Below, one piece after another: positions 8,931 to 43,437 of a stretch of DNA of 64,000 bases. Positions within the stretch are counted from its first letter, which is position 1. Each line of letters begins with the position of its first letter. Source of the DNA: Jejuia pallidilutea (GTDB taxonomy: Bacteria; Bacteroidota; Bacteroidia; Flavobacteriales; Flavobacteriaceae); the NCBI RefSeq assembly GCF_002973595.1, contig NZ_PVEO01000007.1, positions 1-64,000 of the forward strand, in the 5' to 3' direction. Position numbers and translations under genes: made by a program. The notes under the pieces were generated by a model, which saw nothing but the letters and a program-made list of their open reading frames with translations, did no database searches and was not told the origin of the DNA.

Positions 8931-9005
8931 GGGCGCGTAGCTCAGTTGGTTCAGAGCACTTGGTTTACACCCAAGGGGTCAGGGGTTCGAATCCCTTCGC
9001 GCCCA
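8931..9005 (+). tRNA. tRNA-Val (anticodon TAC)
   Basis: Cloverleaf: acceptor GGGCGCG pairs with CGCGCCC plus discriminator A. The anticodon stem CTTGG/CCAAG encloses TTTACAC, giving anticodon TAC. The T-arm GGGGTTCGAATCCC is canonical. CCA is not encoded. It has its own promoter and terminator, so it is a single-gene transcript. Confidence 0.96.
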
Positions 9006-42592: not shown

Positions 42593-42676
42593 ATTTCATC
42601 GATTATTTTAAGTGTATCGACGAATAGTGTTAAAAAAATATGTATTTCATCGATTATTTATGTTTTTAGACGGTGT
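42593..42676 (+). promoter_or_regulatory. Direct repeats of ATTTCATCGATT in the msrA-alkB intergenic region
   Basis: ATTTCATCGATT occurs at 42593 and again at 42644 (51 bp apart), each inside a longer near-identical block (ATTTCATCGATTATTT). A weaker copy (GTATCGACGAAT) starts 21 bp after the first, and a doubtful one at 42665 is 21 bp after the second. A TATATTTG element follows at 42693. The same motif family occurs in the gldJ-porU region. Confidence 0.5.
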
Positions 42677-42692: not shown

Positions 42693-42700
42693 TATATTTG
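42693..42700 (+). promoter_or_regulatory. -7 element TATATTTG of a candidate small-RNA promoter
   Basis: A perfect TAnnTTTG match on the plus strand with no TTG at the usual distance, as expected for a promoter that needs an activator. The ATTTCATCGATT copy at 42644 lies about 50-60 bp before the expected start site. Confidence 0.45.
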
Positions 42701-42705
42701 ACACG

Positions 42706-42845
42706 TACTAAATAACATACTTTTTAGTTCAATGGATTAATTAATTAATATTTGCATTATGTTGTTGATGTGGAGACCCCAAATCTAGCACATAATATAA
42801 AAGCAAATTAAGAAAGAACCGAGTTTGAGGGAACTCGGTTTTTTT
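42706..42845 (+). ncRNA. Candidate structured small RNA
   Basis: No ORF on the plus strand. The segment 42745-42811 can fold into a rod: TTTGC (42751-42755) with GCAAA (42803-42807), ATTATGT (42756-42762) with ACATAAT (42790-42796), a 4x4 internal loop, and GATGTGG (42767-42773) with CCAAATC (42779-42785) containing one G-A mismatch and an AGACC loop. A canonical terminator with a plus-strand U-tract follows. It resembles a small regulatory or 6S-like RNA. Its end is antisense to the last codons of alkB. The 5' end is inferred from the -7 element. Confidence 0.42.
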
Positions 42846-43437
42846 GTGGAATAATACGAAATGTTAAATTAATTCTTGGGCCTATTTTCCTTGTTGTTTT
42901 AGGTATTTGGTGTAACCAGTTTTCTTGTGTAGAACCCTGCATTAACAGTAGACTTCCGTGTTTTAACACTATTTTTTTCTTTAAGGTTTTATCATGCTTA
43001 TGTTTAAAATGAAACACACGTTCTTCCCCAAAAGTTAAGGATGCAATTATCGGGTTTTTGCCTAATTCTTTTTCGTCATCAGCATGCCAACCATTACTAT
43101 CTTTTCCATTACGATATAAGTTAGCTAAACAACTTGTAAAATAGATATTTAGCTCTGTTTCAATAGCATTTTTTATCTCCAAAATATCTCCTTTAAACTC
43201 TTGGGGGAACATGGTAATGTTACTGTAAGAATATGGTTGGTTATTTGTACCAAAAAAAGCAGTTAATCGGGGTTGGTCATAGGTTTTTCCAAAAACCTTT
43301 ATTTTGTCTTGTTGCCATTTAAGTTTTGAGTATAAATTTTTAAAATAAGTGTTTGCTTCGTTTTCACTAAAAAAAGTAGGGTAGTAAAGTACATTAGCAT
43401 CTTTCAGGTTCAAATTTTCAACATTTAACAAGCGCAT
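42808..43437 (-). CDS. alkB: AlkB-like 2-oxoglutarate/Fe(II) dioxygenase
   Basis: 209 aa. Double-stranded beta-helix iron motif: H118-A-D120 in GWHADDEKE and a distal His near 176 (WLHQIPK); RINLTFR near 189-195 binds 2-oxoglutarate. TAFFG and NLYRNG are typical of the AlkB group close to human ALKBH2/3. It should reverse alkylation of DNA or RNA bases by oxidative demethylation. The last codons form a terminator-like hairpin read on the opposite strand. Confidence 0.9.
   Translation of the reverse strand: MRLLNVENLNLKDANVLYYPTFFSENEANTYFKNLYSKLKWQQDKIKVFGKTYDQPRLTAFFGTNNQPYSYSNITMFPQEFKGDILEIKNAIETELNIYFTSCLANLYRNGKDSNGWHADDEKELGKNPIIASLTFGEERVFHFKHKHDKTLKKKIVLKHGSLLLMQGSTQENWLHQIPKTTRKIGPRINLTFRIIPQKNRVPSNSVLS
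42817..42845 (+). terminator. Intrinsic terminator of the candidate small RNA
   Basis: AACCGAGTT (42817-42825), loop TGAGGG, AACTCGGTT (42832-42840), then T-run to 42845 on the plus strand. The hairpin lies inside the 3' coding end of alkB (minus strand); the minus-strand tail (CTTTCTTAATTT) is a poorer U-tract. Confidence 0.8.

Follow-up and report, generated by a model that had tools for sequence, protein, structure and literature searches.

We identified a small RNA (sRNA) gene of about 142 nt at positions 42705 to 42846 on the plus strand of the window, the 64,000-nucleotide stretch of Jejuia pallidilutea DNA that was analysed, and sequence comparison placed this gene in a large group of Flavobacteriaceae. 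The same comparison established the limits of the gene, its predicted structure, a conserved promoter with upstream boxes, conserved unpaired segments and its independence from the adjacent alkB-like gene. The product is probably a regulated, stand-alone sRNA that acts in trans by base-pairing. To our knowledge, few small RNAs of the Flavobacteriaceae have been described, though the family is common in the sea. The present one makes up an RNA family absent from Rfam 15. Its ends have been predicted and a covariance model built, and it comes with a promoter layout that is conserved and with two segments that are candidates for pairing.

The gene is a plus-strand unit without an open reading frame, and it lies between an msrA-like gene (PF01625) on its left and an alkB-like gene (2OG-Fe(II) oxygenase, PF13532; 42808-43437), both of which are on the minus strand. 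Its predicted +1 is G42705, based on the −12 to −5 placing of the TAnnTTTG element in a Flavobacterium psychrophilum study (PMC9723704). From 5' to 3', the RNA is predicted to form a hairpin (GUACUAAA...UUUAGUUC; 42705-42730), an unpaired A/U-rich linker (AAUGGAUUAAUUAAUUAAU; 42731-42749), a rod (42750-42808) with an AUUUGC/GCAAAU outer stem, inner stems, internal loops and an AGACC apical loop, and an intrinsic terminator with a U-tract of seven T (42812 to about 42846). The linker is the most conserved segment of the sRNA and a candidate for pairing or protein binding, and the loop region of the terminator (UUGAGGGA; 42825-42832), which is conserved while the stem varies, is a candidate seed. 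Stop codons arise from the linker in all three frames, and a small protein was unsupported in 78 homologous sequences, in which the longest closed frames span 2 to 25 codons. A terminator scan listed a terminator here on the minus strand only; the T-run on the plus strand is plain in the sequence. We found that 42706-42845 folds at −34.8 kcal/mol against a mean of −19.5 for shuffled sequences (z −4.5, with 0 of 200 shuffles as good), and that the fold of 42705-42846 has a z of −4.4. The promoter element, rod and terminator with U-tract named in an earlier, sequence-only reading of this DNA were all present, as was the overlap that makes the terminator antisense to the last codons of the convergent alkB gene. 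The leader of about 45 nt in that reading turned out to hold both the 5' hairpin and the most conserved part of the RNA.

The structure was assessed in an alignment of 78 sequences, of which the genus supplied 12 and other genera 66, with two sequences truncated by contig ends (L095 and L105) left out. The tested structure comprised 43 pairs, that is, the window's fold minus two pairs and plus two added by hand, and a hand-added pair (columns 5/32) was counted though it is unpaired in 71 of 75. Compensatory changes in relatives, which the sequence-only reading had proposed to look for, were found: 21 of the 43 pairs had two-sided changes, and 91.2% of cells paired in the true register, compared with just 36-53% in slid controls. 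None of 500 shuffles, which ignore relatedness, reached any of the five measures. The terminator stem had two-sided changes in 11 of 14 pairs with 98.4% of cells paired, and the 5' hairpin in one of eight pairs with 85.7% paired. Helices 2 to 4, those of the rod, had 99.6, 86.0 and 81.6% of cells paired; at an inner pair (columns 80/88), both sides had changed in 25 sequences, from A-U to G-C, and the outer stem was nearly invariant, with one compensatory change. RNAalifold, unaided, predicted just 19 pairs, 12 of them with two-sided change, all in the outer stem and the terminator; support for the inner rod and the 5' hairpin therefore comes from the window's fold together with these counts. 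Among the unpaired parts, the linker segment GGATTAATTAATTAA was exact in 73 of the 78 sequences and the invariant TTGAGGGA in 76; the terminator loop was kept in 76, while its stem covaries.

A DNA search of the genus revealed a strong match in 12 of 12 genomes, including the window's own, at 88-100% identity. Across the 11 congeners, mean identity to the window was 0.92-0.93 at 42720-42839; for alkB it was 0.58-0.81, and towards msrA 0.20-0.54. All these values are somewhat low, because the alignment misplaced one congener (L019), which lacks alkB at this locus. In the family, 71 of 199 genomes were matched by DNA search at E ≤ 1e-3. R1, a covariance model built for the sRNA, matched 71 of the 199 at E ≤ 0.01 and 69 at E ≤ 1e-8; of the two weaker matches, one lies at a contig end (G073) and the other is short (69 nt, G137). 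Under stricter filters, R1 matched 6 of 296 genomes in a phylum sample, all six from the same family, of which the 296 may include any number of members. A pattern scan of named genomes matched at least 118 stretches, and the 80 matches listed included Winogradskyella, Algibacter, Psychroserpens, Gelidibacter, Bizionia, Lacinutrix, Olleya, Tamlana, Flavivirga, Mangrovimonas, Hyunsoonleella, Seonamhaeicola, Mariniflexile, Xanthomarina and others.

The region upstream of the predicted start is also conserved in layout. The −7 promoter element TATATTTG (42693-42700, plus strand) is of the TAnnTTTG type, and TAnnTTTG was well placed in 131 of 137 distinct loci, namely those with the exact linker and loop pattern. 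The usual −33 place for TTG is 19-21 nt upstream of TAnnTTTG, and TTG was found there in 0 of the 131 loci. Box A, ATTTCATCGA (42644-42653, plus strand), lies at −49 from the −7 element; with at most two mismatches it occurred at −49/−50 in 129 of the 131 loci, compared with 4.9 per set in shuffled sequence. A second half-repeat, TTTNATCG, follows 20-21 bp downstream of box A with at most one mismatch in 96 of the 131 loci, and is degenerate in the window (about 42663-42672). Another box, TGTTAAAA (42628-42635, plus strand), lies at −65 from the −7 element and is exact at −65/−66 in 115 of the 131. The box motifs were read from these same loci, so that the counts are a description and not a test; more telling is how constant the spacing is. 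This fixed position before the promoter suggests that the promoter is activator-dependent, with box A probably the site of a putative DNA-binding activator; the activator may be of the LytTR type, a guess from the repeat spacing. A sigma70-type promoter scan listed no plus-strand promoter at the sRNA, as expected for a promoter of another type. An extra copy of ATTTCATCGA is present at 42593-42602, 51 bp from the copy in box A. Over all 12 genomes in the genus, the direct repeat of 21 bp, searched with two mismatches, had 76 sites and its reversed control 113, so that the pattern is rarer than the control. Box-like 21-bp repeats (TTTNATCG) were seen at L284:1798 and 5153 (+), L285:2034 (−), L286:2000 (−), L270:1501 (+) and L281:1975 (+), and the genes behind them look secreted or surface-located, as judged from protein starts only.

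In the mechanism that we infer, RNA polymerase with the primary sigma factor would start at about 42705 from TAnnTTTG without a −33 TTG, probably helped by the activator at the −49 box, and the RNA of about 140 nt would end at its own terminator. It would then most likely pair with mRNAs in trans through the linker and the terminator loop, and the rod may have a role as well. Action in trans, which the sequence-only reading had raised, remains the favoured part of this mechanism, although simple-complement searches with the loop and the linker yielded no convincing target and no recurring 5' UTR target. The loop complement TTCCCTCAA was not enriched in the genome, with 25 sites (one being the sRNA's own antisense) compared with 23 for the reversed pattern. 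Three of the 25 fall between genes, 60-140 nt ahead of a reading frame, and in two further cases the site is at the end of one frame and 76-98 nt ahead of the next, both figures being without a position control. With one mismatch, the linker complement had 41 sites in 12 genomes, of which 12 are the sRNA itself; the other 29 compare with 12 for the reversed pattern. A recurring site, TTAATTAATCCATTT, was seen in six congeners examined (L326, L338, L024, L330, L333 and L334), where it overlaps the stop codon of a lipoprotein gene that was assigned to the OmpA family from its own sequence. It was not found in the window's genome and may be a coincidence.

The conserved unpaired segments would also fit protein binding, the main rival to base-pairing. 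Here the unpaired linker and the loops would bind an RNA-binding protein or RNA polymerase and titrate it. The long invariance of unpaired A/U-rich sequence is consistent with such a sequestering RNA, as are a loop complement that is not enriched and the absence of a recurring 5' UTR target from the searches. On the other hand, the sRNA matched neither 6S nor any other Rfam family, and 6S-Flavo is present elsewhere in the genome. We consider protein binding the rather unlikely reading, and base-pairing in trans the preferred one.

We also examined the genes around the sRNA. The usual downstream neighbour is an M15 D-Ala-D-Ala dipeptidase-like gene (PF01427; 43476-44141, plus strand, in the window). 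Neighbours were counted by tblastn at 1e-6 in the 62 loci, among the matches listed, that have a right flank of 1.5 kb or more. In 59 of these 62 listed loci an M15 gene followed on the same strand within 1.5 kb; alkB lay antisense within 400 nt in 40, with the M15 gene behind it in 39; 20 kept the sRNA and the M15 gene but had no alkB detectable over those 400 nt, and two had neither gene. In at least 68 of the 71 loci that have a reading frame on the left, the closest one is a minus-strand frame, directed away from the sRNA. The msrA gene was rejected as a partner, as none was found at the 80 matches listed (at most 8 kb apiece, and in some cases short of flank on one side). Because the left gene reads away and alkB is not always found on the right, the sRNA is neither a leader nor a 3' UTR, and the comparison indicates that it is its own gene, independent of alkB. 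Together with the conserved promoter and boxes, the terminator and the covariation, the orientation of the left gene bears out the sequence-only view of a stand-alone, structured and probably regulated RNA. An effect on alkB, suggested in the same reading, was not upheld, as the 20 listed loci without a detectable alkB make an alkB-specific role unlikely.

These counts also bear on the idea that the element acts in cis, either as an antisense or bidirectional terminator of alkB or as an attenuator leader of the M15-peptidase gene. The window's terminator overlaps the last alkB codons and also reads as a minus-strand terminator, and the M15 gene is downstream on the same strand nearly throughout the listed loci, as a cis role would have it. 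However, the sRNA is retained in the listed loci with the M15 gene and no detectable alkB, the antisense alkB between sRNA and M15 gene in 39 of the 62 is a misfit for a leader, and conservation spans the hairpin, linker, rod and loop, beyond the terminator alone, all of which makes a cis-acting element improbable. A divergent homologue with a shorter rod and similar upstream boxes (R1 E 1.6e-6) was found in genome G397, where an M15 gene starts about 65 nt past the sRNA. Among 36 genomes selected largely because they lack a clear sRNA, nine had the M15 gene, and G397 was the only one with the sRNA at that locus; at the other eight, R1 never matched better than E 0.03, and three of these (genus g128) only distantly match the M15 protein.

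Rfam 15 was searched for known families, as the sequence-only reading had proposed, and none reached its gathering score at the sRNA locus. Under permissive settings (E ≤ 10) there were weak matches only, with a lowest E of 0.25 for mir-703 (20.5 bits against 88 required) and 21.6 bits against 90 required for MicC. 6S-Flavo (RF01685) was absent from the locus at both settings, and the genome's match to it lies at G000:C10:108535-108683 (96.5 bits), so that the sRNA is not 6S and the 6S-type identity put forward earlier was rejected. 6S RNA is a long rod with a central bubble that mimics an open promoter. The sRNA consists of a separate 5' hairpin, an unpaired linker, a short rod and a terminator; like 6S-Flavo, it would be a stand-alone flavobacterial RNA with a rod-like part, but its rod is short, and it has a conserved linker and terminator loop of its own. 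Trans-acting base-pairing sRNAs, such as GibS of Bacteroides thetaiotaomicron, have their own promoter, an unpaired conserved segment and a rho-independent terminator. The sRNA resembles them in this layout, and sequence comparison found that its own promoter and terminator are accompanied by conservation independent of the adjacent alkB. Among the papers searched, no title or abstract described it. The sole Rfam match at gathering score in the whole window is a tRNA gene at 8931-9005 (+).

The closest described flavobacterial sRNA that we found, compared by description only, is Rfp18 of F. psychrophilum. According to its report, Rfp18 is an independent, strongly structured sRNA, conserved across species, with a predicted pairing region in its third stem-loop, and its deletion lowers the mRNA levels of two metalloproteases (PMC9723704). 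The sRNA could be a distant homologue, as both come from the same family and share this general nature, and its own third stem-loop is the terminator with the conserved loop. Rfp18, however, is described there as widely conserved in the genus Flavobacterium (PMC9723704), where the sRNA was not convincingly found: no Flavobacterium was among the 80 matches listed from the named-genome scan, and in g128, a heavily sampled genus that is probably Flavobacterium, R1 was never better than E 0.002 across 13 genomes. Three of the 13 had weak R1 matches of 84-91 nt, and G232, the only one examined, matches mainly in the terminator. We regard homology to Rfp18 as very unlikely. A functionless chance fold with a terminator, which has nothing in its favour beyond the generic nature of terminators, is contradicted by the conservation, the covariation and the fixed promoter boxes and has a negligible probability.

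Upstream of the sRNA we found a second structured RNA, also without an Rfam listing (no gathering score reached; lowest E 0.051). It was delimited at L009:1266-1392 (+), and the copy in the window's genome (G000:C12:7748-7899, that is, L352:1527-1653, +) sits on a different contig from the sRNA. It has a hairpin whose loop UUGAGUGGUUACUU is conserved, a segment UUUUUGGUUGGUUAGUUAG that stays unpaired, and a terminator, and a sigma54-like −24/−12 promoter (GG[CT]A...TTG) was present in 141 of 146 rows. In 90 distinct sequences, picked by GTGGTTAC, GTTAGT and the promoter, 94.8% paired over 27 predicted pairs, 21 of them with two-sided change, the pairs having been predicted on the same alignment. 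A profile built from 88 such sequences, partly from the same loci as those searched, placed the second RNA upstream on the same strand in all 57 named loci, among the matches listed, that have 2.5 kb or more of upstream sequence, and in 73 of the 80 matches listed overall, compared with 0 in reversed controls. The distances between the two RNAs cluster near 190, 1200 and 2060 nt. This linkage may partly be ordinary local synteny, because the M15 gene is kept as well. Direct pairing of the two RNAs, assessed in L009, was no better than for shuffled RNA (160 of 200 shuffles as good).

We tentatively suggest, as one possibility, that the two RNAs form a module in which one sRNA under sigma54 and the present one under the primary sigma factor and an activator would convey two signals from one locus and strand to shared genes, perhaps of the envelope or surface. 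Both RNAs could open post-transcriptional control to study in a little studied group. The second RNA also occurs in three or four tandem copies (L176:3633-4485, L211:191-713 and L231:831-1337, all on the plus strand), each with its own sigma54-like promoter.
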